Below are positions 29,620-50,659 of a stretch of DNA of 52,633 nt, in pieces. The number at the start of each line of letters is the position of its first letter. The stretch's first letter is position 1. Location: NCBI GenBank assembly GCA_018335335.1, contig JAGXKG010000004.1, forward strand, positions 37,037-89,669, written 5' to 3'. This DNA comes from Candidatus Thorarchaeota archaeon (lineage in GTDB: Archaea; Asgardarchaeota; Thorarchaeia; Thorarchaeales; Thorarchaeaceae). The notes under the pieces are model-generated. The model searched no databases, was not told where the DNA came from, and saw nothing but the letters and a program-made list of their open reading frames with translations. Both the position numbers and the translations under genes were made by a program.

Positions 29620-29979
29620 TTACTCTTCGTCTTCTTTGGCGATGTTTTCATAGTGGAAGATCATACTGTCTGTGTCATATCCAGCCAGCTCATAGTCTTC
29701 ACTCATAGTGATTGCGTCTACCGGACACGTATCTGCACACTGGCCACAGAAGAGACAGCGATGCTGGAGATAGATTATCGTTGCTTCATCACGCCGCCCT
29801 TCCATCTTTATGGCTTCTCCAGGACAGATTCGCTCACAGGCTCCGCATCCGATGCAGGTTTTCATATCCCATACAGGTCGCCCTCTGAAATCCTTGGGCA
29901 CTTCCTTACGTTCGAAGGGATATTTCAGTGTCGAGGCTTTTCGGAAGAGTTCCTTCAATGCATCTGTTAGCAACTTCAT
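29620..29979 (-). CDS. Group 4 hydrogenase/complex-I-type subunit I (ferredoxin-like)
   Basis: 119 residues with two 4Fe-4S motifs, CIGCGACERICP and CLFCGQCADTCP, in the NuoI/EchF/HycF arrangement. The end MIFHYENI is of the group 4 hydrogenase type. It wires electrons between ferredoxin and the small subunit on the cytoplasmic side. Last gene of the A-B-H-I unit, seven bases after the H stop. Confidence 0.88.
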   Translation of the reverse strand: MKLLTDALKELFRKASTLKYPFERKEVPKDFRGRPVWDMKTCIGCGACERICPGEAIKMEGRRDEATIIYLQHRCLFCGQCADTCPVDAITMSEDYELAGYDTDSMIFHYENIAKEDEE

Positions 29980-29986
29980 CTCAAAC

Positions 29987-30949
29987 TCACCAGCGAATAC
30001 CGAACTGTATCAGAATTATCTGTAGCACAGCAATTGGAATTGCATATTTCCACATGCCCTCTTCCATCTGTTCTATTCGTAATCGAGCAAAAGATGCTCG
30101 CAAAACTGACAGTAGAACAACCACGAAGATTGTCTTAAGGAGAAAGCTGATTATGGGCGGGAGAAACAAGATTGGTTGAGGTCCTCCAAGATAAAGAGCT
30201 GCCGCTAGAGCTGATACCAGAACAACCTCTAGGTTCTTTCCTAATCGGATGAGAGCAAGCTTTCTACCACTGTATTCTGTCTTCCATCCTGCCACAATTT
30301 CTGTTTTAGCGTGTGGAATATCAAAGGGGATGAATTCCAATTCTGCAAGTAGAGAAACAATCAGGATACTAAAGCCGATTGGTTGTAGGAATATGAACCA
30401 CATTGAGTTGTTCAACTGCCATTGCGCGATATTGCTAATGGAAAGACTTCCAGCAACAAGTGCCGGCCCAATCATTGCTAACCCCATCGGGATTTCATAT
30501 CCCACCATCTGAAGTGCAGCACGAGCACTCCCTATGGTAGAGAATCTGTTCATTGAGGAATAGCCACCGAGAAAAATCACAATCATGATGAGTGTGAACA
30601 TGAACATCATGATTAGCAAGTCCCCTTCAAACGAAATGATGCTGGTTGATCCTGAAATTGGAACAAGGAAAAGTGCAGTAAGCGGAATCGCAAAGAATGC
30701 TATTGGGGCCAAACCGAAAATACGGCTATCAGCTGCATCCGGAGTTAAGTCTTCTTTCTGCAACAACTTGAGGAAATCGGCGAATGGTTGCAGGATACCT
30801 TTTGGACCTGTGTGTAGTGGACCAATCCGTTTTTGAACACTTGCGACTGCTTTTCGATCTATCCATTCGTAGAAGAATGCTAATAGGATTACGAAAAGGA
30901 TTCCCGGAAAAACGAAGATTTGAATCGCTGAGATGATTTCATTAATCAT
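29987..30949 (-). CDS. Group 4 hydrogenase/complex-I-type subunit H
   Basis: 320 residues, eight helices. Family landmarks are EWIDRKAVASVQKRIGP, GILQPFADFLKLLQKED, YEIPMGLAMIGP and FIPFDIPHAKTEIVAGW. In complex I this subunit joins the hydrophilic arm to the membrane arm and forms the quinone-chamber entrance; in Ech/Mbh hydrogenases the homologue anchors the small and large subunits. GGAG ten bases upstream of ATG 30949. Confidence 0.92.
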   Translation of the reverse strand: MINEIISAIQIFVFPGILFVILLAFFYEWIDRKAVASVQKRIGPLHTGPKGILQPFADFLKLLQKEDLTPDAADSRIFGLAPIAFFAIPLTALFLVPISGSTSIISFEGDLLIMMFMFTLIMIVIFLGGYSSMNRFSTIGSARAALQMVGYEIPMGLAMIGPALVAGSLSISNIAQWQLNNSMWFIFLQPIGFSILIVSLLAELEFIPFDIPHAKTEIVAGWKTEYSGRKLALIRLGKNLEVVLVSALAAALYLGGPQPILFLPPIISFLLKTIFVVVLLSVLRASFARLRIEQMEEGMWKYAIPIAVLQIILIQFGIRW

Positions 30950-30956
30950 TCTTGAC

Positions 30957-31430
30957 TTACTCCTCGATTTTTGGAGGCGTTTCAGGTTCCTTGTTTTTGT
31001 GAGTTTGTTTTCCTTGCTTCAATTTCGCAAGCAATTTCGTAACGCCATCAATTATTGCTTCAGGTTTTGGTGGGCAGCCTGGTACGTATGCATCTACAGG
31101 AATCACGTGGTCGACCCCTCCACAAACGCTGTAACACCCTTGGAATGGTGCACCACTACTGGCACACGTTCCAACTGCCACTACGAATTTGGGCTCAGCC
31201 ATCTGTTCATAGATGCGCTTCAGCCGTTTTTCATTCTGTAGTGTAACAGGTCCAGTTACAACCAAGATATCTGCATGTCGAGGACTTCCTTTCAATACGC
31301 CCCCGAATCTCTCGAGATCGAAACTCGGCATAAGAGCGGCTACTATTTCAATGTCACAGCCGTTACAACCACCACTTGGAAAATGTAACAACCAAGGACT
31401 AGATACTTGAGCCCATTGCAAAATACCCAT
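30957..31430 (-). CDS. Group 4 [NiFe]-hydrogenase small subunit (B-type)
   Basis: About 157 residues. The proximal 4Fe-4S cluster ligands are in FPSGGCNGCDIEIV, GTCASSGAPF and YVPGCPPKPEAI. CNGCD is the form of group 4 hydrogenase small subunits (EchC, MbhJ); complex I NuoB has adjacent Cys-Cys. The start is taken at ATG 31430, one base after the A stop and ten bases from GGAG; the in-frame TTG at 31439 is too close to that site. The Lys/Pro-rich tail is unusual but short. Confidence 0.9.
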   Translation of the reverse strand: MGILQWAQVSSPWLLHFPSGGCNGCDIEIVAALMPSFDLERFGGVLKGSPRHADILVVTGPVTLQNEKRLKRIYEQMAEPKFVVAVGTCASSGAPFQGCYSVCGGVDHVIPVDAYVPGCPPKPEAIIDGVTKLLAKLKQGKQTHKNKEPETPPKIEE

Positions 31431-31431
31431 T

Positions 31432-31767
31432 CTAGGCAACTCTCCTATAGAATACCAACAGCCAGCTGGCCGCCAACAAAACCATCGAATAGATGATTGG
31501 TACCAATCCAGCTGCAGGTGATGATGTAGCCAGCATGAATATCAAAACATCGAAGATTAGCAAGTAAATTGCATAGACCAAGAAGTGTTCAATATCTATC
31601 TGCAATTCTTCTCTCGGAAAATCCTCTCCGCAAGCATACAGCTCCCCTTTTGCCCCGCTATCTTTAGACGAGACTTTGACTGATATTTTTCCGCTGTACC
31701 AGTAAATGATCAGGGCCACAACAATAGATATACCGAAGATAACGGGCAGTAATATGAGGGTCGACAT
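31432..31767 (-). CDS. Complex-I-type subunit A in hydrogenase cluster
   Basis: About 111 residues, three helices. LYACGEDFPREE followed by HFLVYAIYLLIFDVLIFML matches the NuoA/FpoA loop with its Cys and acidic pair and the second helix. In complex I this loop borders the active site and takes part in coupling. A-type subunits are usual in complex I and Fpo but not in Ech, Mbh or Hyc hydrogenases. GGGTG six bases before ATG 31767 fixes the start. Confidence 0.85.
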   Translation of the reverse strand: MSTLILLPVIFGISIVVALIIYWYSGKISVKVSSKDSGAKGELYACGEDFPREELQIDIEHFLVYAIYLLIFDVLIFMLATSSPAAGLVPIIYSMVLLAASWLLVFYRRVA

Positions 31768-31797
31768 TCTATGCACCCTGTTTGAGAACAAATTCAA

Positions 31798-31953
31798 TGG
31801 TATCTTTAAGCTTGCGGTCCGGAAGTTCTATGAATCCCTGAAAAGGCTTAGTATTTATTTGATTTTACTTTCGATTGAAAAGTCGGTTTTGAGAAGATTT
31901 TTATTCTACTGCTAGGCCTGCCGAATTAGCGGTTAGTAACGCAGGAGTTTGCC
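31798..31953. promoter_or_regulatory. Divergent promoter of the two main hydrogenase units
   Basis: Between the A-B-H-I unit (minus) and the J-K-N-L-M unit (plus). AT-rich TATA candidates are TTTTTATTC at about 31899-31907 for the plus unit and, on the minus strand, AAATAAATACTAAG at about 31848-31862. AGGAG at 31943-31947 is six bases before the TTG start of the plus unit. One control region could set both units. Confidence 0.45.
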
Positions 31954-32208
31954 TTGGCATTAATGGATATCCCCCTCATCATCTTAATGATTCTAGCTTT
32001 GGGATTTGCATTGTCAACGGTGGAGACAAGAGACCCCCTCTACAGCATTCTTTCCTTTTGTGGAATGTGCATTACAATTGGTAGCATATTCTGGATTCTG
32101 GCAGCTCCATATGTCGCTATCTTTCAGTTGCTAGTTTACGCAGGAGCTGTTGTGGGGATTTTCCTTGCTGCTATTATGTTGACAACGCGAAAGGAGTGCA
32201 TTGAGTAA
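31954..32208 (+). CDS. Hydrogenase subunit J, N-terminal half (MbhD-like)
   Basis: 84 residues, three helices. ETRDPLYSILSF and APYVAIFQLLVYAGAVVG match the first part of NuoJ, whose pi-bulge helix relays conformational change. J is split into two genes here, as in Mbh/Mrp-type systems. TTG start supported by AGGAG; the ATG four codons in is an alternative. The last base of its stop codon is the first base of the next start codon. Confidence 0.82.
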   Translation: MALMDIPLIILMILALGFALSTVETRDPLYSILSFCGMCITIGSIFWILAAPYVAIFQLLVYAGAVVGIFLAAIMLTTRKECIE

Positions 32209-32495
32209 TGAAATATGATAAAATACAGATTGCGGGCTCAATAGTTGCATTGCTGGCAATTATAATTTTGGGCATATTCTTGATTCAAATCCCCTTCCCC
32301 GCCTTCGAATATGCAATCGCTGATGATCATCTGGTTGAGATTACTCAGCCACTGGGTGAGGAAATGAGCGAATTCATGTGGGGGTTCAGAAGTATTGATT
32401 TGTTGGGTCAAGCATTCGTTCTGTTTAGCACCGCTGCAGGATCCCTTGCAGTTCTAATCGGGATAGAACACATGGACGAGGGAGAAACCGAATGA
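32208..32495 (+). CDS. Hydrogenase subunit J, C-terminal half (MbhE-like)
   Basis: 95 residues with a first helix, an extracytoplasmic loop and a second helix containing FRSIDLLGQAFVLFSTAAG, the signature of the Mrp/Mbh segment that continues NuoJ. It overlaps both neighbours by one to four bases, which signals translational coupling. Confidence 0.78.
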   Translation: MKYDKIQIAGSIVALLAIIILGIFLIQIPFPAFEYAIADDHLVEITQPLGEEMSEFMWGFRSIDLLGQAFVLFSTAAGSLAVLIGIEHMDEGETE

Positions 32496-32806
32496 TTCCA
32501 CTGACATATTTCCTTGCCTTTTCAGCAGGATTGTACATCATCGGTATATACTGCTTGATATCCAAACGCAATTTGATTCGACTGGTCCTAGCAATTGAAA
32601 TCCTGTTGAATGCTGCCAATGTCAATTTCATAGCTCTTTCATTGTTTTGGAATGAGGGGTTTGTGGATCCGTTTGCCCAGACCTTAGTGGTGATTTCAAT
32701 AACCTTGGCTGGTTGTGTGAGCGCTGCAGCCCTTTCACTTGTAATCTATGCTTACGAACACTATGGAACATTGAATGCACGAGAGCTCAGGAGGCTTCGA
32801 AAGTAG
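32492..32806 (+). CDS. Hydrogenase subunit K (NuoK/MrpC-like)
   Basis: 104 residues, three helices. SKRNLIRLVLAIEILLNAAN carries the conserved first Glu (E36). The second Glu of NuoK is not there: the corresponding helix reads TLAGCVSAAALSL, which with DPFAQTLVV is closer to MrpC/MbhG. It forms part of the ion path between the H/A/J region and the antiporter-type subunits. Confidence 0.88.
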   Translation: MIPLTYFLAFSAGLYIIGIYCLISKRNLIRLVLAIEILLNAANVNFIALSLFWNEGFVDPFAQTLVVISITLAGCVSAAALSLVIYAYEHYGTLNARELRRLRK

Positions 32807-34261
32807 ATGCTGACTCTACCACTCAACATACTATTCATATTCGCAGTGACAACTCCCGCGGTTGGCTATCTGGGAAACAAATACGGTTACAGGAACCTGT
32901 GTGGAGTATATGCTTTGATAGGTGTCTTTCTTGCTGGGTATGCGGTCTATGATCTTTACTTGGTAGCCTCGGGAGGGGTGTATGTATTCCCATCTGATTT
33001 TACACGCCTTTTTGCACATTTCAGAATCGATACGCTTGGCTTTTTCATGGCATTCATTCAGGTTGGCCTAGGTCTCCTTGCCACATTGTATTCTATTAGA
33101 TATATGGAAGAAAAATGGCCTACTCCACTCTATTACTCCTCGTTATTGGCAATGATAGGCGGAATGATGGGGGTAGTATTTGCTGCTGATTTGTTCACTC
33201 TTTTCGTTTTCTGGGAGCTTATGTGCATTAGTTCCTATATGCTTGTAGCATTCGATAGGGAGTGGGAGCCAATTGAGGCCGGGTTGAAATATCTCCTCAT
33301 GAGTGCCGCAGGATCAGCGACTTTTCTTTATGGTATTTCTCTCATCTACGGTTTTGCTGGCTCTCTAGACTTCGTTACCCTTGCGTCAACTCTGGGTCAA
33401 GCCCCAATTAATAGGTGGTTCAATTTCACCTATTTGCTCATTTTTGTTGGCCTTGGTATTAAAGCCGCAGTCGTTCCTCTGCATACTTGGTTGCCTGATG
33501 CTCACTCTGCGGCGCCAACTCCGATATCCGCAATGCTCTCCGGTATTGTTATTGAAACTGGCCTTTATGCCATGTTTCGAGTTTCCTACACTGCCTTGGC
33601 CTCTATCCATGTAGAGTGGATGCTAATCTTGGCTGTCTTCAGCATTATTACCATGACTCTTGGCAATCTATCAGCTCTTCTTCAGAAAGATTTGAAGAGA
33701 TTGCTAGCATATTCCAGTATTGCACATATTGGATACATGTTAGTTGGGCTATCCATTGGCACCGAACTGGCCTTAACAGGTTCTTTTCTACATATCTTCA
33801 ATCATGCGCTGATGAAGGGTACAGCTTTTCTTTGTACTGGTGCGATTCTTTACCGCTTGGGAACCAGGGATTTGGACAAGATAGGTGGCGTTGGAAGGAA
33901 GATGCCTATCACAGCTATTGCCTTTGGGGTTTCCTTACTTGCCCTATCTGGCCTACCAGGTCTCAACGGATTTGTAAGTGAATTGACCCTCGTCCTTTCA
34001 ACCCTTGAAGAGGGCTTCTTATGGCTCGGTATTGCAGTAATCCTCAATACAGCCATATCGGCAGGATACTACCTACGAATCTTCCGTACAATGATGCAGT
34101 CGCCACCAACCGAGTTAGCTGAGGAAGCTGAAGAGGCGCCTGTGAGTATGCTGGTACCTATCTGTCTGCTAGCCACATTCATTGTAGTTTTTGGTATTTG
34201 GCCTGACATAGTGCTCGATTTGGCGAGACAAGCTGCACAGGGACTTCTGGGCCTAATTTAA
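32807..34261 (+). CDS. Antiporter-type subunit N (NuoN/MrpD-like)
   Basis: 484 residues, about 14 helices. The TM5 Glu is intact (E137 in FVFWELM). GIKAAVVPLHTWLPDAHS gives the TM7 Lys, and QKDLKRLLAYSSIAHIGYM a Lys in the second half. Likely one of three ion-translocating channels of the complex. It starts at the base after the K stop codon. Confidence 0.9.
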   Translation: MLTLPLNILFIFAVTTPAVGYLGNKYGYRNLCGVYALIGVFLAGYAVYDLYLVASGGVYVFPSDFTRLFAHFRIDTLGFFMAFIQVGLGLLATLYSIRYMEEKWPTPLYYSSLLAMIGGMMGVVFAADLFTLFVFWELMCISSYMLVAFDREWEPIEAGLKYLLMSAAGSATFLYGISLIYGFAGSLDFVTLASTLGQAPINRWFNFTYLLIFVGLGIKAAVVPLHTWLPDAHSAAPTPISAMLSGIVIETGLYAMFRVSYTALASIHVEWMLILAVFSIITMTLGNLSALLQKDLKRLLAYSSIAHIGYMLVGLSIGTELALTGSFLHIFNHALMKGTAFLCTGAILYRLGTRDLDKIGGVGRKMPITAIAFGVSLLALSGLPGLNGFVSELTLVLSTLEEGFLWLGIAVILNTAISAGYYLRIFRTMMQSPPTELAEEAEEAPVSMLVPICLLATFIVVFGIWPDIVLDLARQAAQGLLGLI

Positions 34262-34275
34262 CGGAGAGATAACAA

Positions 34276-36309
34276 ATGCTAATTGATATCAATATACTCG
34301 CTTGGTTTACTTGGATATTCCCGCTAGTAGGTGCAGGTATCTCTCTGCTCCTATCCAAAAAGAATGATCGATTTAGCGCCTATGGGACTGTGTTATTCGG
34401 GTTCTTGGGATTCCTCATGGCATTTCTGATGCTTCCAGAGGTTTTCCATCCTGAAGCTATCAATACTACGGCATTTTGGGTAACTTTGCCCGGCGGTATA
34501 TCTGTGTCTATAGGTATGCTCGTTGATCCACTTACAATTATCTTGGCCAATATTGTGAGTTTTCTGGCCTTCCTCATACTTGTTTACTCTGTCAAATATG
34601 TTGAACACGAACCAGGAAAAACAAGATACTGGTTCTTCATGTCTCTATTCATTGGCAGCATGCTACTGCTTGTGATGGCGGACAACTTGATTCTCCTATT
34701 CGTGGGCTGGAAGATGGTTGGCGTATGCAGTTATGCACTTATCGGCCATTACTACAGCGACGAAAAAGAACATTGGATTGGAGGTCCAGAGCCGTTTTCT
34801 TTCCAGAAGCCTTCACGGGCGGGACTGAAAGCTCTACTGGTTACGACCTTCGGAGACGTTTCGCTTCTTGGCGGAATGATTCTCATCTACATGTATTCGG
34901 GAACATTCAACTTCATTCAGCTCTATGAGACGGTTTCCACTTGGGTTCCTGCTATGGCGGCTGATCCCGGAGTACTGACGCTTGCATCTGTTCTGGTTCT
35001 TGGTGGTCCAATTGCAAAATCGGCCCAATTCCCCCTCCATGAATGGTTGCCTGAAGCCATGGCGGGTCCAACCCCTGTATCCGCATTGATACACGCAGCA
35101 ACAATGGTGAAGGCTGGCGTGTATTTCGTTGCTCGAATGGCACCAATCTTCTTCTACGGTTATTGGATTGGTGGTTTCTCTGAAGCTGGAACCTTCTTCT
35201 TGATTACAGCAGCAGTTGGAGGTTTCACTGCTTTTCTAACTGGCACTCAAGCCATGGTGGCTCTTGAACTGAAAAAGGTACTCGCCTTCTCAACCATGAG
35301 CCAAATCGGGTATATGATTCTTGGTCTGGGTGTGGCAGGTTTGAGCCCCGAAGCACTTACTGGTGGCCTTACAGCAGGCATTTTTCATCTTGTAAGTCAT
35401 GGTATTTTCAAGGCAGCATTATTCCTTACTGCCGGTTTCATTCTTCACGCTACAGGCACAATCTATATGTCTGAAATGAATCTTTCACGAACCCGGACGA
35501 AACTGACTTGGGCAGCTATGTGGATAGTAACACTGTCCTTAATGGGGGTTCCACCGCTATCAGGATTCTGGAGTAAAGAAGAAATTCTGACTGTCTGTCT
35601 TGACGGCGGTCATTTCATTCTGTTTGCATTTGCATTATCAACAGTCGCAATCACAGCGTTCTACTCGGTTCGATTTATGGGAATGGTATTCCATGGTCCC
35701 CAAGAGGAGAGCTCTTCTCATCACGAGGCTGACCGAATAATGCTCACTCCCTATGCTCTTCTTGCGATTCTTACATTGGGGCTTGGGATAATCGGTCCTT
35801 GGTTTGGTGAAGGACTGCATCACATATTCGAGGAGTATTTTGTTCACACACTCGGATTCGAAGTGGTTGCAGAATCCACAGCTATAGCCCCATCAATGGC
35901 TCTTTCTGAAACAATACCCTTCTTGATACCCATTCTTTCAATCTCGATGCTCGCTCTTGGAGCACTTCCTGCTTACAGGTTGTATGTTTCAAGAAAGAGT
36001 AATCCAAAAGATATCGTTGGCGAGGAAGGTGTCCTGAAGAAACTACATTCTTTCCTCTGGAACCGTTGGTACATCAACGCAGCATACTTGGCGATAGTTG
36101 ACGGAATAATGGCTATGCGAGAACCACTGAAGAAGTATGTTGAACGACCCATTGATCGAGCTTTGAATGACGGTATTCCTAATCTCTTCTCTGCGATAAG
36201 TAATAAGGTGAGGAAAATCCAAACAGGAAACTTCTCAATCAATATGCTCTATGTATTCGCTTTCTTGGTACTGGCTGGAATCGTACTCCTATTTACGGGG
36301 GTGCCCTGA
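34276..36309 (+). CDS. Antiporter-type subunit L (NuoL-like) with Lys at TM5
   Basis: 677 residues including the long C-terminal lateral helix and final anchor typical of NuoL. Landmarks are SAQFPLHEWLPEAMAGPTPV with the TM7 Lys, and LELKKVLAFSTMSQIGYM. At the key TM5 position (GWE in NuoL) the protein has K146 in LLFVGWKMVGVCSY; the codon AAG is at 34711-34713. Glu here is nearly universal in the family, so this subunit may not pump in the usual way. It starts 14 bases after N. Confidence 0.92.
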   Translation: MLIDINILAWFTWIFPLVGAGISLLLSKKNDRFSAYGTVLFGFLGFLMAFLMLPEVFHPEAINTTAFWVTLPGGISVSIGMLVDPLTIILANIVSFLAFLILVYSVKYVEHEPGKTRYWFFMSLFIGSMLLLVMADNLILLFVGWKMVGVCSYALIGHYYSDEKEHWIGGPEPFSFQKPSRAGLKALLVTTFGDVSLLGGMILIYMYSGTFNFIQLYETVSTWVPAMAADPGVLTLASVLVLGGPIAKSAQFPLHEWLPEAMAGPTPVSALIHAATMVKAGVYFVARMAPIFFYGYWIGGFSEAGTFFLITAAVGGFTAFLTGTQAMVALELKKVLAFSTMSQIGYMILGLGVAGLSPEALTGGLTAGIFHLVSHGIFKAALFLTAGFILHATGTIYMSEMNLSRTRTKLTWAAMWIVTLSLMGVPPLSGFWSKEEILTVCLDGGHFILFAFALSTVAITAFYSVRFMGMVFHGPQEESSSHHEADRIMLTPYALLAILTLGLGIIGPWFGEGLHHIFEEYFVHTLGFEVVAESTAIAPSMALSETIPFLIPILSISMLALGALPAYRLYVSRKSNPKDIVGEEGVLKKLHSFLWNRWYINAAYLAIVDGIMAMREPLKKYVERPIDRALNDGIPNLFSAISNKVRKIQTGNFSINMLYVFAFLVLAGIVLLFTGVP

Positions 36310-37797
36310 ATGGAGATTCCATTCTTACTGCTTCAGACGGTACTCATTCCAGCAGTCTCTGTACCGATTATGGGATTACTTGGCAAGAAAATAGGCAAAC
36401 AAGTCGGCTGGGTTGTAACCGCAGTTCTAGCATACACAACCTTTCTCCTGCTCCTTGGAGGTGTAGATTACTGGGTCAGTGGATCTGCACTCAGTGAGCA
36501 GTATTTCTGGAGCACAGCACTCTTCGACATCGAGTTCGGATTCTTGGCTGATGGTCTCAGCTATCCTGTTGCCGTCATCATGAATATACTATCAATGACG
36601 CTTGCTGTGTATTCCATTCGATATGTTGAACATGCCATTGAGGAGCTCTATGGTGATGGGAATGAAGGCATGAATGGGCTTTACTATGGGCTTTTCATGT
36701 TCTTCCCGACCGGACTTGTGGGAATGTCATTAGCAACGAACCTGGTTGAAATCTACTTATTCCTCGACGTTTTGCTGATTCCTCTCTACTTCATCATAAG
36801 CTATTTTGGACTCATAAAGCGACATCGAATTGCAACCATGGTCTTCCTATGGGGCTTCATAGGCGGTTCACTCTTTCTCATAGGTTCAGTAATGGTATAC
36901 TCACAGATTGGGAGCCTCATGATTAGAGATTTACCAGCTCTCGCAGGGTCGCCTCTAGCGTTCTGGGCAGCGATATTCATGCTCGTAGGGATTCTCACGA
37001 AGATGGCTGCATTCGGTTTTCATGTGTGGCTACCTTGGGTGCATTCAGGGGCTCCAACACCAGTATCTGGTATATTGACTGTCGTTGTCGGTATCATGAG
37101 CTACTTGCTAGGTAGGATATTTGTCCAGAATCTGGCAACTGTTATCCAAGCGCTGTCAACACCACTCATGATTTGGGCATTGATTACTATGCTCTACGGT
37201 GGTCTGCTAACCCTTGCTCAGGATGATATCAAACGTCTGTATGCTTGTTCGACAATAAGCCAGACTGCATACTCCCTCCTGGGATTGGCAACTCTTACGA
37301 CTACGGGAGCCGCTGGAGGTGTATTCTACTTCCTTAGCCATTCCCTCGGCAAGGTCATACTATTCTCTGCCGCTGGGATGGTGATGATCAAGACCGATGT
37401 TAGAGACATCAACAAGATGGGAGGACTTGCGAAGAAGATGCCACTTACGGCGACCCTTTGTGTGATGGGTTCGCTAATTCTATCTGCGATTCCACCATTC
37501 AGTGGTTTGCAAGCGGAATGGATTATGTTCATCGGTATTTTTGAACAAGGTGTCGCTGCAGGCACCCTTCTCAACATAGCAATACCGGTAGCTGGGATAT
37601 TCATCACCTTCATTTCCAGTGTCTATACTTTCTGGCCGGTGATGAGGATATTCTTCGGTCCCCTGCCTAAATCACTAGAAGATGTTGAAGAAGCACCACT
37701 ATCAATGATTGGACCGACTGCGATTCTTGCTCTGATTTCCTTCTTGTTTGGTATCTACCCCGAGTTGGTCATGCGGTTCTTATCGGCCGCGTTCTAA
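36310..37797 (+). CDS. Antiporter-type subunit M (NuoM-like) with Asp at TM5
   Basis: 495 residues, 14 helices. GILTKMAAFGFHVWLPWVHS holds the TM7 Lys and DDIKRLYACSTISQTAYS a later Lys. The TM5 motif FWE-x-x-L-x-P is here LFLDVLLIPLY, with D153 in place of Glu, a conservative change. Abuts the L stop directly. Last gene of the unit, followed by a terminator. Confidence 0.9.
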   Translation: MEIPFLLLQTVLIPAVSVPIMGLLGKKIGKQVGWVVTAVLAYTTFLLLLGGVDYWVSGSALSEQYFWSTALFDIEFGFLADGLSYPVAVIMNILSMTLAVYSIRYVEHAIEELYGDGNEGMNGLYYGLFMFFPTGLVGMSLATNLVEIYLFLDVLLIPLYFIISYFGLIKRHRIATMVFLWGFIGGSLFLIGSVMVYSQIGSLMIRDLPALAGSPLAFWAAIFMLVGILTKMAAFGFHVWLPWVHSGAPTPVSGILTVVVGIMSYLLGRIFVQNLATVIQALSTPLMIWALITMLYGGLLTLAQDDIKRLYACSTISQTAYSLLGLATLTTTGAAGGVFYFLSHSLGKVILFSAAGMVMIKTDVRDINKMGGLAKKMPLTATLCVMGSLILSAIPPFSGLQAEWIMFIGIFEQGVAAGTLLNIAIPVAGIFITFISSVYTFWPVMRIFFGPLPKSLEDVEEAPLSMIGPTAILALISFLFGIYPELVMRFLSAAF

Positions 37798-37818
37798 GAT
37801 CTAGTGAGAAGCACAGTG

Positions 37819-37863
37819 CTGGGGCTCTATCTTGAGCCCCTCATTCTTTCTTTGCATCAGTTT
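37819..37863 (+). terminator. Hairpin and T-rich tract after subunit M
   Basis: GGGGCT (37821-37826) and AGCCCC (37835-37840) form a 6-bp stem with an 8-base loop, followed by a pyrimidine-rich TCATTCTTTCTTT run. It closes the J-K-N-L-M unit, so the following oxidoreductase genes need their own promoter. TATA candidates for these lie at about 37904-37912 and 37924-37931. Confidence 0.65.
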
Positions 37864-37983
37864 TTGGTTCATAGATGCTGCCGCTGTTTCTGAATGTGTT
37901 CAGTGATATACCACATCAACAAGTCTTTTATCCCGGCGGTCTTGTAGCCCAATTGTCAGTAAAAGAGAGTCTGAGGCAAAGAT

Positions 37984-38829
37984 ATGACCCAAGTACACAC
38001 TCAAACACTCAAGCACCCCATGGCGAAATACATACGAGAGGATCGCCAACCATGGATCTATTGCCCTGGATGCAGCATTGGCATTGTCACCAATATGGTT
38101 GCACGGGCAATTGATAATCTTGGCTTGAATTACCATGATGTGGTAGTCGTCTCAGGTATCGGTTGCACTGGACGTACTTCCGGGTATTTTGAAACTGGTT
38201 CCTTCCATACCACCCATGGCCGGGCTATTGCCTTTGCCAGTGGTGTGAAGATAGCTAATCCTGACCTGGAAGTGATTGTTGTATCTGGAGATGGAGACAT
38301 TGCAGCAATCGGAGGAAACCATCTCATCCATGCTTGCCGCCGAAATGTCGACATAACCGTCGTATGTGTTAACAACTTCAACTATGGTATGACAGGTGGC
38401 CAATTCGGACCGACAACCGAGCATGAGAGATACACTCAGACTTCGCCAAAACCGATTGGGAATATCGAACATCCTTTCAACCTTGTGAAACTGGCTGCAT
38501 CATCTGGAGCCACATTTGTTTCACGATGGACTGCGGTGCAGGCACGACGAGCTACCCAGTCAATTGAGAAAGGCATTGCGAAAGATGGTTTCTCGTTCAT
38601 TGAGGTTGTTGGCGCTTGTCCTACTGCATACGGTCGGCGAAATGATATGGGCGCTGGTGTCGAAATGCATAGGCATCTTCTTGAAGTAGCCGAGATACAG
38701 AATGGTCTTCCCCCTCATGAAGCAACATTGGATTACGATAATAAAATCATCTGTGGAGAATTCGTAAACATAGAGAAGGCTGAATATACTGACATATTGA
38801 AGGCTGCTCGTCAAAAGGTAGAGGGGTGA
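37984..38829 (+). CDS. 2-oxoacid:ferredoxin oxidoreductase beta subunit (KorB-like)
   Basis: 281 residues. YCPGCSIGI, SGIGCTGRTSGYFE, HTTHGRA, SGDGDIAAIGGNH and NNFNYGMTGGQ give the ThDP and Mg2+ site of the KorB/VorB type. It is distinct from the beta subunit at 7408. No alpha subunit lies before it (only 186 bases separate it from subunit M) and none follows, so it must use an alpha encoded elsewhere if it is a full enzyme. It is on the plus strand inside the hydrogenase region. Confidence 0.9.
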   Translation: MTQVHTQTLKHPMAKYIREDRQPWIYCPGCSIGIVTNMVARAIDNLGLNYHDVVVVSGIGCTGRTSGYFETGSFHTTHGRAIAFASGVKIANPDLEVIVVSGDGDIAAIGGNHLIHACRRNVDITVVCVNNFNYGMTGGQFGPTTEHERYTQTSPKPIGNIEHPFNLVKLAASSGATFVSRWTAVQARRATQSIEKGIAKDGFSFIEVVGACPTAYGRRNDMGAGVEMHRHLLEVAEIQNGLPPHEATLDYDNKIICGEFVNIEKAEYTDILKAARQKVEG

Positions 38830-39398
38830 TTCAGGTGTCACGTTTCGAAGTACGAATGGGCGGTTTTGGAGGACAGGGTATTGTCACCATGGCTGTTGTG
38901 CTTGGTGAGACAGCATCACTGATTGAAGGCAAGGAGTGCGTACAAACACAGTCGTATGGCCCTGAAGCTAGAGGCGGAGCAAGCAAGAGTGAGGTGGTAA
39001 TCAGCGATGATAAAGAGGTTGATTATCCCAAGGTCATTGCTCCAGACGTGTTTATCGTACTGAGCAGAGCAGCTTATCTTTCATACAAGGATGACCTCAA
39101 AGAAAATGGAACACTCATCGTTGATGAGGATCTAGTAGAAATCGAGGGCGATTTGCCCGAGGGTACTAGAATATACAAAATCCGTGCTACTCATATCGCG
39201 GACAACAAAGTGGGTTCCAAGCTTGCTACGAACGTCGTTATGCTCGGAGCGTTCTCAGCAATCACGGGTGAAGTAACACTCGAAGGATTGAGAGAACGAG
39301 TAGCTCAGCGGTGGCCGCGATTCAAGGACACCAACCTGAAAGCCCTTAAACTTGGATATGAAGCTGGGGAGAAGGCTGTAGAAGAAGCCGAATCTTGA
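38826..39398 (+). CDS. 2-oxoacid:ferredoxin oxidoreductase gamma subunit
   Basis: About 190 residues: MGGFGGQGIVT loop, QSYGPEARGGASKSEVVIS, and a C-terminal helix. These are the marks of KorC/VorC gamma subunits. GTG 38826 overlaps the beta stop; GTG 38835 behind GAGGGGTG is an equally good start. Co-translated with beta. There is no delta ferredoxin gene. Confidence 0.9.
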   Translation: MIQVSRFEVRMGGFGGQGIVTMAVVLGETASLIEGKECVQTQSYGPEARGGASKSEVVISDDKEVDYPKVIAPDVFIVLSRAAYLSYKDDLKENGTLIVDEDLVEIEGDLPEGTRIYKIRATHIADNKVGSKLATNVVMLGAFSAITGEVTLEGLRERVAQRWPRFKDTNLKALKLGYEAGEKAVEEAES

Positions 39399-39474
39399 GA
39401 TCCATGCCATAACTGCTTACATGATTACTTGTACCAGGTTTTACTTGAGACTTGCACTCATGTAAGACCCTGAG

Positions 39475-39540
39475 AGAAAAAAGAAACTAGGAGTGGATTC
39501 CCGTCATATTAGGCGGGTTCACCACTCAGATTTTTGTTTT
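39475..39540. terminator. Bidirectional terminator between convergent units
   Basis: GAGTGG (39491-39496) pairs with CCACTC (39522-39527), with an inner CCCG/CGGG stem (39500-39503 and 39514-39517). The plus strand continues into TTTTTGTTTTTG, and the minus strand into a T-rich run (complement of about 39475-39486). It can end both the gamma gene and the large-subunit gene. Confidence 0.7.
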
Positions 39541-39544
39541 TGCT

Positions 39545-40765
39545 TCACTTGTTTTCTTCGTACGCCTTGTTCGCCCGTACTCTGAGCTGCTCCTTGGACA
39601 CGATTTCGATTGACTCGTCTTCTGCATCAACAAGAGCAATCCGATCTGTACAACTGTAGCATGGGTCGATTGCAGCCAAGATGATTGGTGCGTCTGCAAT
39701 TTGATAGCCTCTCAAGGTATGTTCCATGCTGACCCAGTTAGCGTGGGTCGGTGCCCTAATCTTAACACGTTCTGGCTTGCTTGTACCATTGGTAACCAAG
39801 TAATGCACGAGTTCACCACGTGGTGCTTCATGCCTTGCGACAACCTCGTTTGGATCGATCCTGGGACTCATTCTGGTCTGAATGTCTCCATCCGGCAAGT
39901 TCTCAATGAGCCATCGTGACATCTCGATTGCCTGAACAATTTCCTTCAACCTGACAATGGTTCTGCCGGCAACGTCGCACCGGTCTGACAGAATCATATC
40001 CCAGTTGCCCGTATCAATTAGGTGGGGGTACGCTTGGGTGGGGTCGGTGAAACGTACATCTACCGGAACATTACTACCTCTCGCGGTTGGACCTACAGCT
40101 CCATGGCTTTTTGCCATTGAAGTCTCAAGGACACCAACATCCTCTACACGATTGAGAAGGCTTCTCTCCTTGATTGCGGTATTGAGGTAGTAATCCATCT
40201 GCTCCTCAAGCTTATCGAGGCGCTTGAGCAGGCTGTGTGCTAGCTCGTCAGAGATGTCTCTTCTGACTCCACCAATGGAATTCATATCATGGTGAATACG
40301 TGCCCCGGATAGCTCCTCGAGCATATCGAGGGATAGCTCTCGGTCTCGCCACGCATACATGAATAGTGTTTCGAATCCGATCTCGTGGGCTGCAACGCCA
40401 AACCAGAGCATGTGTGAATGGATTCGGTCCATTTCCCATGTCAGGGTTCTGATGAATTTGGCTCGTTCAGGAGGTTCCTTTTCGGCTGCAAATTCAACTG
40501 CTTGAGCATAGTTCCCGTTATGTGTTGCAGAACAGATACCACAAATCCTAGCTAGCAAGTACAGGTTCTGGGTGTGAAGGTTGCCTTCCGTTGCCTTTTC
40601 TATGCCCCTGTGATTGTAGGATATGTTCACTTCGGCGTCGACAATCTCCTCACCATCCAAGGTAAGCTTGAACATACCTGGTTCTTTCAGTGCTGGATGC
40701 TGGGGACCAATTGGAATGGTAATTCGAGGGGGTACGAATGTCTTCCTCTGTTCTTTCGAGGTCAT
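39545..40765 (-). CDS. Group 4 [NiFe]-hydrogenase large subunit (D-type), NiFe ligands kept
   Basis: 406 residues. The fold is that of NuoD/EchE/HycE large subunits (IPIGPQHPALKEPG start, NHRGIEKATEG, TWEMDRIHSHMLWFG, MNSIGGVRRD). Both nickel-binding pairs are present: C75 and C78 in RICGICSATH, and C369 and C372 in DPCYSCTDR. Complex I and Fpo large subunits lack these Cys. After R375 there are 31 more residues, close to the 32-residue peptide removed from E. coli HycE during maturation, so C-terminal processing is plausible. Catalyses H+/H2 interconversion with electrons from ferredoxin. One base after the C gene. Confidence 0.93.
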   Translation of the reverse strand: MTSKEQRKTFVPPRITIPIGPQHPALKEPGMFKLTLDGEEIVDAEVNISYNHRGIEKATEGNLHTQNLYLLARICGICSATHNGNYAQAVEFAAEKEPPERAKFIRTLTWEMDRIHSHMLWFGVAAHEIGFETLFMYAWRDRELSLDMLEELSGARIHHDMNSIGGVRRDISDELAHSLLKRLDKLEEQMDYYLNTAIKERSLLNRVEDVGVLETSMAKSHGAVGPTARGSNVPVDVRFTDPTQAYPHLIDTGNWDMILSDRCDVAGRTIVRLKEIVQAIEMSRWLIENLPDGDIQTRMSPRIDPNEVVARHEAPRGELVHYLVTNGTSKPERVKIRAPTHANWVSMEHTLRGYQIADAPIILAAIDPCYSCTDRIALVDAEDESIEIVSKEQLRVRANKAYEENK

Positions 40766-40766
40766 C

Positions 40767-41336
40767 TTACTGTGCCTCCTTTTTTGCTGACGGTACGGGT
40801 GGTCGCTTTATTCTCTCTCTGACCCCTCTCGGATCATCCCAGTCCTTTCTAAGGGGATGCTCATCTTCGGGCCAATCTTCGGGAAGTTCCACTCTATGTT
40901 TCTTCTCAAGCCCTACAGCAACAACTCCATACATCTCGTATAGCTCATTTTCTACATATTCGAAAGCGGGAAACAGGTCTACGATTGAAGGATATTCTGG
41001 CTTATCTCGAGGAACGTTGACTCGAGCAGTCAAGGATATGTTTCTATCGTTGAGGAAGAAATGATAGCACGCCTGAAGATCGTCTCCGAGGTCTCTTCCT
41101 GAGAGAGTAGAGCATTGCCAGACTCCCTGTTCTTCCTTCAGGTATTTTGCGAAGTCACGGAATTTGTCCTTCTTGACTTGAATAAAGACCCGGCGTGGTT
41201 GCTTGTGTACATAAGACCCCTCCTCGATCACAGCATCTGGGTTGTCATTCATAATTTCATCAAAGAGCTCGTACTCTGTCTCATGACCTTCCCTATCAGC
41301 GGGATGGTGTTCGCCTGGTTCTTCTTTATCACTCAT
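40767..41336 (-). CDS. Group 4 hydrogenase/complex-I-type subunit C
   Basis: 189 residues. An acidic 30-residue N-terminal extension is followed by the NuoC/HycE-N domain: VFIQVKKDKFRDFAKYLKE, then FEYVENELYEMYGVVAVG and LPEDWPEDEHPLRKDWDD, the family end motif. It scaffolds the large subunit on the cytoplasmic side. C and D are separate genes, as in archaeal complexes, not fused as in HycE. Start ATG 41336. Confidence 0.92.
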   Translation of the reverse strand: MSDKEEPGEHHPADREGHETEYELFDEIMNDNPDAVIEEGSYVHKQPRRVFIQVKKDKFRDFAKYLKEEQGVWQCSTLSGRDLGDDLQACYHFFLNDRNISLTARVNVPRDKPEYPSIVDLFPAFEYVENELYEMYGVVAVGLEKKHRVELPEDWPEDEHPLRKDWDDPRGVRERIKRPPVPSAKKEAQ

Positions 41337-41620: not shown

Positions 41621-42391
41621 TCACTGGATGGACAGTAGTGCGGCCCCTAAGGCACCCGTGAATTGAGCTTCTTGCGGCACCGAGATGTCTTCACCAAGTG
41701 ACTTCCCGAGATAATCTACAAATGCAGGATTTAGCGCTACTCCACCTGTGGCGACTACTGGTGCGACAATGCCTACTCGCCTTGACATACTTGCAATCTT
41801 GCCTGCCATGGACTGATGAATACCCGCAGCTATGTCTTGGGGCGATTTTCCAGAGCTTATTTGGCTGATAACTTCACTTTCAGCAAACACGGTACAGGTG
41901 CTGCTTATGGAACACGGATTTTGAGACTGAAGAGCTAGAGGTCCCAGCCCCTCAATTGGAACATCCAGCACTCTTGCCATCACTTCAAGAAAGCGGCCCG
42001 TTCCAGCTGAGCATTTATCATTGAGCTCAAAATCAGTAGGTCTACCTTCTGAACCGACTCGTATTGCTTTTGAGTCTTGCCCGCCAACATCTATAGCAAG
42101 CTGAACATCAGGGAAAATATGATGCACCCCTAGGCTATGACATGTGATTTCTGTTACCTCTCTATCTGCAATAGAAATCAGTTTGCGTCCATACCCTGTA
42201 CTAACAACTGATTGGTCTATGGCTTCTCCATAAGATTCCTCTATTTCATCCAAAACAGATTCTGCTGCATCGTTGGCGGATGCGCCAGTGGAACGGATTG
42301 AAGAAGCTACAATCTGGCCATTGCTGTTGATAATGACTCCTTTAGTAGTAGTAGACCCAACGTCAATACCGATGCCCACCTTCTCTCTCAT
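41621..42391 (-). CDS. 2-hydroxyacyl-CoA dehydratase/BCR activator ATPase
   Basis: 256 residues of the BadF/BcrAD/HgdC family, ASKHA fold. GIDVGSTTTKGV and AIDVGGQDSKAI bind phosphate, and ATGGVALNPAF the adenosine. The bridging 4Fe-4S cluster ligands are the Cys in NDKCSAGTGRFLE and SSTCTVFAESEV. As a homodimer it uses ATP to fire one low-potential electron into the dehydratase or reductase. Ten bases after the second component gene; only one ATPase is present, which favours the dehydratase type over four-subunit benzoyl-CoA reductase. Confidence 0.92.
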   Translation of the reverse strand: MREKVGIGIDVGSTTTKGVIINSNGQIVASSIRSTGASANDAAESVLDEIEESYGEAIDQSVVSTGYGRKLISIADREVTEITCHSLGVHHIFPDVQLAIDVGGQDSKAIRVGSEGRPTDFELNDKCSAGTGRFLEVMARVLDVPIEGLGPLALQSQNPCSISSTCTVFAESEVISQISSGKSPQDIAAGIHQSMAGKIASMSRRVGIVAPVVATGGVALNPAFVDYLGKSLGEDISVPQEAQFTGALGAALLSIQ

Positions 42392-42401
42392 CCCGCTTCA
42401 C

Positions 42402-43619
42402 CTATTCAATCATCTCTATCAACGCATCGATCCTTGTCTGTATCTGAGCTTCATTGAACAATCGGCTGTCCACCATGTCCCCCTCTATTACCACACCCGG
42501 AACGCCGGTTCGTTCAGTCACCAAATCCTTTGAGACTAGCTGACCAAGGGAGTACCGCTTACAAGATCTAACCGAAAACATGACAAAACCATCCAAGTCA
42601 TATTCCTCAATCAGCCCTGTCATTTTGTCTACTTTCGCTCGCAAACCCCTGTTAAGATAGACGTTGGAATAGATATCAACCATGCGATTCAGAATGCCCT
42701 CTCCTTCAAGTGAGCCTGTCCAAGCATGAGTGTAGGTGTCTGCTGGAAAAACCACTCCCCTCTTGGCTAGGCCGTTGAAGAACTTGTATATACTAAACCA
42801 CGGTGGAATATTATCCCAAAGCAAACGAACTCTCTCATTTCTAATTGCTCCGATACCCTGCTGCACCCGCCCTTCGACTTCGTCGAGGAGAGATTCATAA
42901 TACTCCAGAATATGCTTCTTCCCCCTCATTGAAACAACTGGAGCCATTGCGAGAAATCTATCCGCGCAATTGAGTGGTGATGGCTTATGCTTACATGCTT
43001 CAAGAGATTTCGTCCAGAGGTCGATTGCTTTGGTAGAATTCGATGCCACCTCCTGAAGCTTCTCTTCTTCGAGAGATGTATCGAACTCCTCACCCAGGAA
43101 GTCAATGAGCTCTTCAAGACCCGCCCTCACATACTCCTTGTGATGAGATGGTTGCCTTCGTTGAACTGGTGGTGTATCCAAGAGAAAGACGGGTGCACCC
43201 GTAAGCTCAGAAACCGCCTCATACCATCGAAGTACGGTTCCACAGATGTTGTTACAGGCGAGCAGTACCTGTGGCTCAGGAAGACCCCCTAATGGGCTAT
43301 CATCTGGTCTGTCTGTGGAACCAATACCAGCTCGAGCGTATGAACATAGCTCCTGCGAATATCCAAGGTCCTCAGCAAAACCACACACCTCGGGACCAAC
43401 CTTCTGCGATCCAACAACGGCCGTATATTGCTCTGGATAGCTGACCCCTAAACCCATTGCCAGTGGGATTTCGACCGGGAAACCAGATGTTACCCACGCA
43501 AGCTTGCCTTCTTCGCTTGCTGCTTGAGCCTCAAGCATGTACCTGAACATTGTCTGCTGCAACAGGCTACTTGACTCGAGTTTTCTGTAAGCCCTTTCTT
43601 TACTGTCGTTGCTCGCCAA
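42402..43619 (-). CDS. 2-hydroxyacyl-CoA dehydratase-type subunit (HgdB/BcrC family)
   Basis: 405 residues. AWVTSGFPVEIPLAMG, LGGLPEPQVLLACNNICG and the C-terminal VIEGDMVDSRLFNEAQIQTR match the HGD-D family. Cys in PEVCGF, QELCSYARAGIG and RSCKR are candidate ligands of its 4Fe-4S cluster. It pairs with the gene at 43623, also 405 residues, as a pseudo-symmetric heterodimer. The reaction is either syn-elimination of water from a 2-hydroxyacyl-CoA or ring reduction of an aryl-CoA; sequence alone does not decide. Three bases after its partner. Confidence 0.88.
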   Translation of the reverse strand: MASNDSKERAYRKLESSSLLQQTMFRYMLEAQAASEEGKLAWVTSGFPVEIPLAMGLGVSYPEQYTAVVGSQKVGPEVCGFAEDLGYSQELCSYARAGIGSTDRPDDSPLGGLPEPQVLLACNNICGTVLRWYEAVSELTGAPVFLLDTPPVQRRQPSHHKEYVRAGLEELIDFLGEEFDTSLEEEKLQEVASNSTKAIDLWTKSLEACKHKPSPLNCADRFLAMAPVVSMRGKKHILEYYESLLDEVEGRVQQGIGAIRNERVRLLWDNIPPWFSIYKFFNGLAKRGVVFPADTYTHAWTGSLEGEGILNRMVDIYSNVYLNRGLRAKVDKMTGLIEEYDLDGFVMFSVRSCKRYSLGQLVSKDLVTERTGVPGVVIEGDMVDSRLFNEAQIQTRIDALIEMIE

Positions 43620-43622
43620 TTC

Positions 43623-44840
43623 TCAGACCTCCATTTGCGCAGATAACGTCTCTAAGAAGCTCTGTATTCTTCCTTCCAAGCGTGCCTTGTCCGAAAACTC
43701 CGCATCGACAGGCAATCTTAGCGTAGTCACACCTACATCTTGTGCGGCCTTCACTAGAGACGGAGTTTCAAACTCATCTGGGTCACAGAATGACATTTCC
43801 GTAACAATCAGTCCATCAATGGAGAAATTCCGGAGCAGTTTCTTGAGGAAAGCAACTCTTGTTTTGAGTCCCTTCTGTGTTGGTGCCGTTGGTGCTTTGA
43901 CCGTCATTTCAGCAAGACCCTTGAACAGATGTCTTTCAAGTTTCGCTGTTGGTTTGAATATCATCCTGTACCCAAAGGAGAGCAGATCTAGTACAATAGC
44001 GGCCTCGGTGGGGCTTGCTACCGCATCAAACAGTTCACCCATACGAATGGGGTCCGTCATTCCTCCTGCAACAACTATCCGTAACGGGGGCGACTTTACT
44101 GGAAACGCCATCTCATCCATATGGCCCTGAAGGAGAGATTGTCTTATCTTGGAAGCGGTGCTTGGTCGTTTCACTGAATTCTTGACCCTTCGGTAGATGG
44201 TTTCTAGCTCTTCTAAGGCGACAACCGATGGTGATTCGAGGAAGGAACACAGCAGTTGCACGAATTCTGTATATCGAAGAATATCCGGTTGAAGCACTCT
44301 TGCTGCATAGATTTCTTGACACATATTTCGAAACCATTTGAAGACATTCAGCGCTTTTCTGAGCCGCATCATATCAAGCGATCGATAAACAACGCCCTGA
44401 ATACTTGCACTCAGCTTCCCCAATTCGCCAGCAAGGTATTCTACAGATCTTTCCTTGTCTTCAACAACAGGATATCCTACCTGTAGGATATTGTCTCTTG
44501 GAAATTCTACCTCCCAGATATCATGGAGATTCTGCATAGAGTCGCACATATTGCTTGGAAAGAGCAAACCCTCAAGATGTGAGAGATTTCCCTGGACTCT
44601 TTGGCTCAGCAGGTTCCGGCTAAAAGAACATGCAAATGTCTGTAGGCTAGATTCGAAACCGGTAGCGGGCTTCCTAGACGCCCTTACAAGGGATGGGAGG
44701 GCTGTGTGAGCCACAATCATCTCAAGTGGAGCTCGATGATCGAAATATCCTATCTTGGGAATCTGGGAATCATCAGAGGTAGGAAGTATCTCCTTAGCTT
44801 CGAGCAAGACTTGGTCTCCCTTCATTGTGTTTATCTCCAT
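43623..44840 (-). CDS. 2-hydroxyacyl-CoA dehydratase-type subunit (HgdA/BcrB family)
   Basis: 405 residues, more diverged. KIGYFDHRAPLEMIVAHTAL, FACSFSRNLLSQR, LFPSNMCDSMQNL and MSFCDPDEFETPSLVKA align with the HGD-D fold, and the Cys of these motifs would hold its cluster. The end RLEGRIQSFLETL is typical. First gene of the three-gene operon. ATG 44840 or ATG 44825 could be the start. Confidence 0.83.
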   Translation of the reverse strand: MEINTMKGDQVLLEAKEILPTSDDSQIPKIGYFDHRAPLEMIVAHTALPSLVRASRKPATGFESSLQTFACSFSRNLLSQRVQGNLSHLEGLLFPSNMCDSMQNLHDIWEVEFPRDNILQVGYPVVEDKERSVEYLAGELGKLSASIQGVVYRSLDMMRLRKALNVFKWFRNMCQEIYAARVLQPDILRYTEFVQLLCSFLESPSVVALEELETIYRRVKNSVKRPSTASKIRQSLLQGHMDEMAFPVKSPPLRIVVAGGMTDPIRMGELFDAVASPTEAAIVLDLLSFGYRMIFKPTAKLERHLFKGLAEMTVKAPTAPTQKGLKTRVAFLKKLLRNFSIDGLIVTEMSFCDPDEFETPSLVKAAQDVGVTTLRLPVDAEFSDKARLEGRIQSFLETLSAQMEV

Positions 44841-48781: not shown

Positions 48782-48913
48782 TATGTAACACCTTTGGTAA
48801 TGGGAAATAATCCACTTCATAAGGATATTGCACAATAGCAAAATTGTGTGGATTCATATTACTCAAGAATAACATCTTGTTGAATGCTCAATCTAGAATG
48901 GACGAAAAACATC

Positions 48914-49486: not shown

Positions 49487-49495
49487 TCCGGACGA

Positions 49496-50455: not shown

Positions 50456-50569
50456 GAAATATCACCTCGAATAAATACAATCTATTATTGCTTTCGGGTG
50501 ATTTCTGATAAAAGTTGGGATGTACATACGGATAGGGACTACCCTGTTGATGCAAAGCATTTTACAGAC

Positions 50570-50602
50570 GGGAGGACTGCTGTCCTGCCGAACAATCCTC
50601 CC
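50570..50602 (-). terminator. Possible 3' hairpin of the PH-domain gene
   Basis: GGGAGG (50570-50575) pairs with CCTCCC (50597-50602), with an inner AGGAC/GTCCT-like pairing. It lies about 60 bases after the stop at 50660. There is no long T run after it, so the call is weak. Confidence 0.35.
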
Positions 50603-50659
50603 GACGCGATTTCTATACTGTCTTTATTATCTGTTTCTACGGACCAAAGGCATCGTGTG

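Follow-up and report, generated by a model that had tools for sequence, protein, structure and literature searches.

The genes described here lie in a 52,633-nucleotide stretch of DNA from a Candidatus Thorarchaeota archaeon (GenBank assembly GCA_018335335.1, contig JAGXKG010000004.1), which is called the window at its full length. From position 29620 to 41336 it carries 14 genes, 12 of a hydrogenase and two of a 2-oxoacid:ferredoxin oxidoreductase. We consider it highly probable that the former encode a membrane-bound group 4 [NiFe]-hydrogenase of the kind published as "Fpo-like hydrogenase" (Hfo), in this genus a mosaic whose catalytic part and frame appear to come from two evolutionary lines. 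The first four genes are read from the minus strand: the I subunit (NuoI/MbhN-like, 29620-29979), with eight cysteines in two 4Fe-4S ferredoxin motifs, the H subunit (NuoH/MbhM-like, 29987-30949; PF00146, E 5e-90), the B subunit (30957-31439) with a CxxC motif (CNGC), and the A subunit (31432-31767) with the motif YACGE. Divergent from them, the plus strand holds the membrane arm, which consists of J1 (31954-32208; PF00499) and J2 (32208-32495), the N-terminal and the second half of a split NuoJ, the NuoK-like K (32492-32806; PF00420), one NuoL-like protein with long C-terminal helices, L (34276-36309; PF00361), and two antiporter-type NuoM/N-like proteins on either side of it, N1 (32807-34261; PF00361, E 1.5e-76) and N2 (36310-37797; PF00361). 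The arm is followed on the same strand by the beta and gamma subunits of the oxidoreductase, KorB (37984-38829; PF02775) and KorC (38826-39398; PF01558). Beyond these, again on the minus strand and separated from A-B-H-I, lie the [NiFe] large subunit D (39545-40765; PF00374 and PF00346) and the NuoC-like C (40767-41336; PF00329).

Proteins were identified by Pfam and NCBIfam profile searches, which recognized every hydrogenase gene except J2; this one matched no family and was assigned by its position and its relatives. With J2 assigned in this way, the locus has the complete set of 11 subunits that Nuo and Fpo share (A, B, C, D and H to N). A first-pass annotation, made from the sequence alone, had listed the same proteins, with J split and three of antiporter type, and the open reading frames (ORFs), profiles and relatives confirmed it; KorB, KorC and the separation of C-D from A-B-H-I were absent from its account. 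Its remark that no NADH module is seen also held: NuoEFG, FpoFO and the Mrp module (MbhABCF) were absent by profile search from the 14 genes from I to C, two small ORFs (28637 and 29076) and other parts of the genome lying outside that search. The genome itself (G000; G and L labels denote genomes and loci of this analysis) is a metagenome-assembled genome (MAG) of 2.94 Mb in 176 contigs, 97% complete with 3.6% contamination, and G001 is another genome of the same genus. "Family" refers to the same Asgard family, where a D of the family type, 67-73% identical to that of the window, occurs in 11 genomes of other genera (G003, G004, G005, G009, G011, G013, G015, G016, G019, G023 and G024).

The D subunit has cysteines at positions 75, 78, 263, 369 and 372, and both nickel-binding CxxC pairs (C75/C78 and C369/C372) are kept, as read by the first-pass annotation together with the CNGC of B. 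Its L1 (CGICSATH) and L2 (DPCYSCTDR) both fit the Hfo motifs C[GS][ILV]C[AGNS]xxH and [DE][PL]Cx[AGST]Cx[DE][RL] given in PMC7886697. Among solved structures, D is closest to Mbh of P. furiosus (PDB 6cfw, E 1e-77) and HycE of E. coli (PDB 7z0s, E 5e-74). The tail of D beyond DPCYSCTDR aligns with the HycE tail, and the Mbh chain in the PDB stops at the same arginine of this motif, which would fit a removal of the tail during maturation. A check for maturation genes, suggested by the first-pass annotation, succeeded for HypA and HypD and for one HycI-type protease, these three being the genes searched for. Six loci in the genome match the NiFe large-subunit family; this one alone is close to D, the others reaching E 1e-6 to 1e-9. 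The match to Mbh and the recurrence of the cluster in G001, where D is 97% identical, argue for a genuine hydrogenase instead of a chance resemblance. D is grouped with the nickel-bearing hydrogenases, in the same broad group as the Hfo D, and a single clade of the genus D with complex-I-like D was rejected by the approximately unbiased (AU) test (p-AU 3.6e-6). Tree and test together rule out a complex I subunit with chance cysteines, and the reading as a group 4 [NiFe]-hydrogenase with a complete complex-I arm is supported. Of the 127 D-type ORFs scanned, 13 lack both nickel motifs, and these 13 stem from complex-I-like or partial loci. As a separate observation, the D of eight loci from Aminicenantes, Acidobacteria and one Chrysiogenales (L106, L113, L115, L126, L129, L133, L139 and L143) has DPCICC, with a cysteine for the usual small residue in L2.

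By its profile matches, the A gene is a homologue of NuoA/ND3. Alone it reached 22.1 bits, just below the Pfam cut-off of 23.3, and 29 of a set of 31 A proteins matched PF00507 at E<=1. A profile of the set found 27 PDB sequences at E<=1, of which 26 are chain 3/NuoA/Nqo7 of complex I or of plant or cyanobacterial NDH, the remaining one being an MBH subunit (chain I, E 0.64). In the motif YACGE, which we take to correspond to the ND3 loop in complex I, the Y, G and E are invariant in all 31 proteins and the C is variable. These matches and the conserved motif rule out a spurious small membrane ORF. The gene is also common in its subclass, an outcome that the first-pass annotation, which had noted that Ech, Mbh and Hyc hydrogenases normally lack an A subunit, had named as one that would refute its reading. 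Among the best 80 loci of a scan of named genomes with D (41-53% identical; Elusimicrobia, Omnitrophota, Bacillota, Acidobacteria, Chloroflexi, Bathyarchaeota and Asgard records included), B was recognized in 76, and 68 of these have an A-like ORF within 1.5 kb of B; in three of the eight without A (L093, L133 and L157), B starts at a contig end.

The AlphaFold2 model of L shows helices between residues 577 and 650 and a final helix at 655-673, with a pLDDT (predicted local distance difference test) of 77 overall and about 52-73, i.e., low to moderate, in 571-650. In a Foldseek search, 47 of the 50 matches listed were complex I or NDH and three were Mrp, with NuoL-type structures at the top, though at root-mean-square deviations of 17-19 A in most of them. 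A NuoL-like subunit with a full-length lateral helix HL, a trait of the complex in PMC11291895, is predicted for L by the model, the placement of the helix being tentative. Elsewhere, L117 (3484-6519), L128 (2527-5811) and L140 (3829-7113) hold L-like ORFs of 1012-1095 amino acids, apparently two antiporter subunits fused.

In related enzyme families, electrons pass from ferredoxin to the two 4Fe-4S clusters of I, on to B and to the Ni-Fe site in D, and A, H and J link this site to K, L, N1 and N2. For the present enzyme, reduced ferredoxin from 2-oxoacid oxidation would most likely feed electrons over I and B to the Ni-Fe site in D, where H2 would be formed. H, A and J would couple this reaction to K, L, N1 and N2, with H+ or Na+ moved outwards, and the reaction may also run in reverse. 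The direction of both flows is what we infer from the genes; KorB and KorC beside the hydrogenase, an arrangement shared by the family loci that reach them, suggest 2-oxoacid oxidation as the ferredoxin source, and a ferredoxin-linked, ion-pumping function, as first proposed, looks plausible. It seems rather unlikely that the complex is mainly an H2-consuming ferredoxin reducer, or a quinone reducer, instead of an H2-evolving pump. The reaction is in principle reversible, and for the Bathyarchaeia Hfo PMC7886697 proposes that ferredoxin is reduced with H2 at the cost of membrane potential. However, the four nickel ligands, the HycE-aligned tail and the maturation genes argue for an active Ni-Fe site and hence for H2 and not quinone, and the neighboring KorB-KorC suggest a supply of reduced ferredoxin.

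With regards to ancestry, the genes of the locus fall into two sets. In the D tree (53 sequences), the window and G001 stand within the family clade (12 sequences, support 100/100; 7 sequences, 99/99), many deep branches being unresolved. Of the Odin-, Heimdall- and Hermodarchaeia, with whose large subunits that of the complex in PMC11291895 goes, the tree took in only L154 (Heimdall) by name, which sits on a long branch (L121, Hermod, was left out). In the H tree (53 sequences), the window and G001 group with G007, the Bathyarchaeota loci L096 and L110 and the "Thaumarchaeota" locus L089 (6 sequences, 97/95), whereas the family H forms a separate clade (10 sequences, 100/100). The Bathyarchaeota records are called Hfo by gene content, not by accessions shared with PMC7886697. 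Quick trees put C inside the family (9 sequences, 100), where it goes with D, and A, I and K on the Hfo side with modest support (K with G007, 88); L groups with G007 (99) and L089 (100). When C and D were concatenated (25 sequences), the window and the family were united at 100/100, and a grouping of the window with four Hfo-type sequences was rejected with a log-likelihood difference (dlnL) of 303 (p-AU 5e-64). For A, B, H and I together (25 sequences), the window grouped with the four Hfo sequences at 86/91, and at 100/99 when L145 was added (7 sequences); here, a grouping with the family was rejected (dlnL 78, p-AU 4e-4).

Plain best-match identities agree with this division. Ten of the 14 genes (I, H, B, A, J1, J2, K, N1, L and N2) are nearer to G007 or to Bathyarchaeota or Thaumarchaeota records, and D, C, KorB and KorC are nearer to the family; for J1, J2, N1 and N2 the lineage was judged by identity only. 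The I subunit is 58% identical to that of Bathyarchaeota L110 vs 36% to the family, H 63-64% to Hfo vs 42%, J1 70% to Bathyarchaeota L096 vs 36%, N1 58% to G007 vs 42%, and N2 56% to G007 vs 35%. The reverse holds for D, with 71% to the family vs 48-49% to Hfo, and the best family matches reach 63% for C, 81% for KorB and 72% for KorC. Judged by sequence and position, D and C, with KorB and KorC, are the family's own genes at the family position, and the membrane arm goes with the Hfo of the Bathyarchaeia type, as do A, H, I and, least surely, B. The locus had first been read as one inherited unit; the division into two lineages contradicts this.

Gene order points the same way. Against nine family loci, the identities are 78-82% for KorB, 69-73% for KorC, 66-71% for D and 54-63% for C. 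The genes beyond C, a BcrAD_BadFG activase and two HGD-D proteins outside the enzyme (41621-44840, minus strand), are 58-65% (activase), 70-74% (first HGD) and 36-43% (second HGD) identical to their counterparts. Where the family loci are long enough, A-B-C-D-H-I stand together on one strand. KorB-KorC face I in eight of the nine (L042 to L048 and L050). Beyond A, six loci (L044, L045, L046, L047, L048 and L050) have the activase and HGD genes, L041 and L042 go on with other window genes (48269-52633), and L043 is truncated. In the window, KorB and KorC face D and C, with the activase and the HGD pair next; no family-type I and H stand between KorC and D, nor family-type B and A between C and the activase, and the Hfo-type block I-H-B-A, J-J-K-N-L-N abuts KorB. 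KorA, 80% identical to that of G005, lies apart from KorB-KorC on contig C15 (L247, 12365-13867), the operon being split here, while relatives that show KorA have it adjoining KorB or at most about 2.5 kb away. By eye, a ferredoxin ORF (KorD) precedes the C15 KorA, and Hdr-like genes lie nearby. The window also holds a second 2-oxoacid:ferredoxin oxidoreductase at 5669-8286, about 30 kb from KorB-KorC, with a long ORF about 30% identical to the family KorA and a beta subunit about 29-36% identical to the family KorB.

A complete Hfo-type cluster is found in another genome of the family, G007, with N2-L-N1-K-J2-J1 divergent from A-B-C-D-H-I and a D only 49% identical to that of the window; A-B-H-I and the arm of the window correspond to this layout minus C-D. 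The G007 cluster (G007:C94; L055, L240) is lodged in a gene neighborhood that the window shares. It is flanked by the orthologues of two segments that are adjacent in the window (13983-15125 and 15270-16001) and that no more than about 0.25 kb separates in G002, G003 and G008; the module of the window lies about 14 kb from this place. The two genera may have received the Hfo in one insertion or in two. In G001 the genes from I to C follow each other as in the window (D 97% and H 98% identical), and the region upstream of them is collinear, which answers the search for the gene set in related genomes that the first-pass annotation had called for. In an H search over 227 genomes of the phylum, 115 matched at E<=1e-40, and besides the window's own genome only G001 (98%) and G007 (63%) exceeded 52%. 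Among the 39 genomes compared, own included, all had a D match of some kind; L056 and L238 end at contig ends, and the D of L063 is split in two ORFs. In the eight family genomes read, a J1-J2-K-L-N-N arm lies on another contig; a six-subunit family enzyme without a pump is unsupported, and the distant arm genes presumably serve the family hydrogenase. In same-family genomes (L067, L069-L074 and L078), another complex-I-like cluster, without nickel, comprises A, J, K, C, D, H, I and antiporters, while B lies separately; the B match in L071-L074 and L078 is an ORF of about 650 amino acids a few kb off. This second cluster occurs in genera with and without a group 4 hydrogenase.

Copy numbers bear on how the two sets are combined. 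In G000 and G001 alike, no second D of this type was found (one each), no second H at E<=1e-40, no second NuoL-like gene at E<=1e-20 (matches being only L and N1 of the locus), and no second B or A with the family B and A of L044 as queries; the sole D, H, B and A are those of the locus. With D, H, A and B single and no second NuoL-like gene, the native catalytic pair has only the foreign-type frame to work with. The simplest history, in which donor and order of events are our reconstruction, would start from a family hydrogenase A-B-C-D-H-I with KorD-KorA-KorB-KorC beside it and probably a J-K-L-N-N arm on another contig. This ancestor would have acquired a complete Bathyarchaeia-type Hfo cluster, and by complementary loss the family A, B, H and arm and the Hfo's own D and C would have gone, leaving the family C-D on the Hfo frame. 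On balance, we regard a chassis swap of this kind as likely, with C-D kept in place and A, H, I, least surely B, and the whole arm replaced from a distantly related, Bathyarchaeia-like Hfo, giving a hybrid enzyme in which D and C evolved faster to fit. The hybrid presumably assembles into one complex and pumps ions. The ratio of the mean window-to-family distance to the mean family-to-family distance is 1.95 for D and 1.73 for C, compared with 1.19 for KorB and 1.63 for KorC (10 sequences each) and 1.31 for the activase and 1.19 for HGD (8 sequences each). The fast D and C are compatible with co-adaptation to new partners, which is not proof.

Trees, AU tests, synteny and the second genome all agree on the mosaic; several points nevertheless weigh against it. 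The margin of B is narrow (68% to Hfo vs 63% to the family), and alone it stands on the Hfo side at a support of 75 only. The I tree puts G007 outside the window's group, the L quick tree scatters L096, L110 and L145, perhaps since other antiporters were picked for some, and the H tree has long-branch warnings (L057, L058 and complex-I-like sequences). The grouping of A+B+H+I with exactly the four Hfo sequences reaches only the 86/91 given above. The clades put to the AU tests were chosen once the single-gene trees had been seen; this takes some force from the p values but leaves the differences as large as they are. In the family locus L041 (G005), KorB-KorC lie on the A side, with two genes between. 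The single-copy searches rest on a draft MAG of 176 contigs and left out a second I and an Hfo-type C. KorC is also fast, so that the rates of D and C cannot be pinned on new partners. Finally, GC (guanine plus cytosine) content is 0.43-0.46 inside the block vs 0.45-0.48 around it; the block is not marked as foreign, and base composition gives no signal of a recent transfer.

An ordinary, vertically inherited Hfo or Asgard group 4 hydrogenase, with the D-C conflict as a tree artefact caused by rates, could draw on the long stems of the genus D (0.39) and C (0.34), which are farther from the family than KorB, and on the placement of D in the same broad group as the Hfo D. We consider it very unlikely, however, as the AU tests reject the swapped placements both ways, the plain identities of H and D split alike, and gene order, as independent evidence, shows D-C where the family has them, but without A, B, H and I. 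That the mosaic arose in assembly or binning deserves hardly any credence: the genome is a draft with some contamination, but a single contig (C4, 89669 bases) contains the cluster and G001 repeats its order and its collinear upstream region.

Complex I is thought to have been assembled from a hydrogenase and an ion-pump module. As a mosaic of two lineages, the locus is a derived arrangement and not a preserved intermediate. The argument of the first-pass annotation on the origin of complex I is made likewise in PMC7886697, for the published hydrogenase with a full complex-I arm. If true, the chassis swap would place a native hydrogen site on a foreign pump, and the catalytic pair and the frame would be exchangeable between lineages differing in about half of their residues. 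It would be a concrete example, known from a single genus of the Asgard genomes searched, of the modularity on which assembly models rely, and large-subunit trees alone could misplace a whole complex. With the mosaic, one could also test which contacts of D, with B, H and I, have to co-evolve.

A hydrogenase with a full complex-I arm is already in print, and the mosaic is the added point; the reading as a singular, undescribed intermediate is not supported. Loh, Herve and Brune (2021; PMC7886697) describe the 11-subunit Hfo of Bathyarchaeia, with Fpo-like gene organization, nickel motifs kept and no NuoEFG or FpoFO, propose it as a closer link than Mbh between hydrogenases and respiratory complexes, and report Hfo-like clusters in Ca. 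Methanomethylicus and Pyrodictium delaneyi. Likewise, Valentin-Alvarado et al. (2024; PMC11291895) report a complex-I-like group 4 hydrogenase with a NuoL-like lateral helix in Asgard archaea (Freyarchaeia and Atabeyarchaeia). No published mosaic of this kind was found, including in the accessible parts of PMC12361115, PMC9723677 and PMC12533140, most subscription literature lying outside the search. The locus resembles the Hfo in having A-D and H-N, the L1/L2 motifs and no NuoEFG/FpoFO or Mrp module in the cluster, and its A, H, I and arm, and weakly B, group with the Bathyarchaeota clusters. It differs in that C and D are from another lineage and apart from A-B-H-I, so that the large subunit lies outside the Hfo lineage (p-AU 5e-64) and the frame subunits inside it, in a J of two genes, and in KorB-KorC within the locus. 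The Hfo gene order is almost the same as that of Fpo (PMC7886697), and that of the locus differs. With the complex of PMC11291895, the locus shares the Asgard host, a group 4 large subunit, the predicted NuoL-like long lateral helix, several antiporter subunits, and the proposal of ferredoxin oxidation with ion transport. That complex stands in a block with Hdr, a group 3 hydrogenase and ATP synthase, which are absent from the window cluster, and the portions seen name L, M, K and S chains without mention of NuoA or of a mosaic origin.

The family-type hydrogenase is alike in its D and the adjoining KorB-KorC, and differs in an unbroken A-B-C-D-H-I with the arm on another contig. Mbh and formate hydrogenlyase have fewer complex-I arm subunits; Mbh and HycE are the nearest solved relatives of D, with nickel ligands kept, and no confident A was found in them. 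In complex I, the D subunit is not known to carry the four nickel cysteines. The locus has the full A, B, C, D, H, I, J, K, L, M, N set of complex I and Fpo, but its D keeps these four cysteines and lies outside the complex-I branch.

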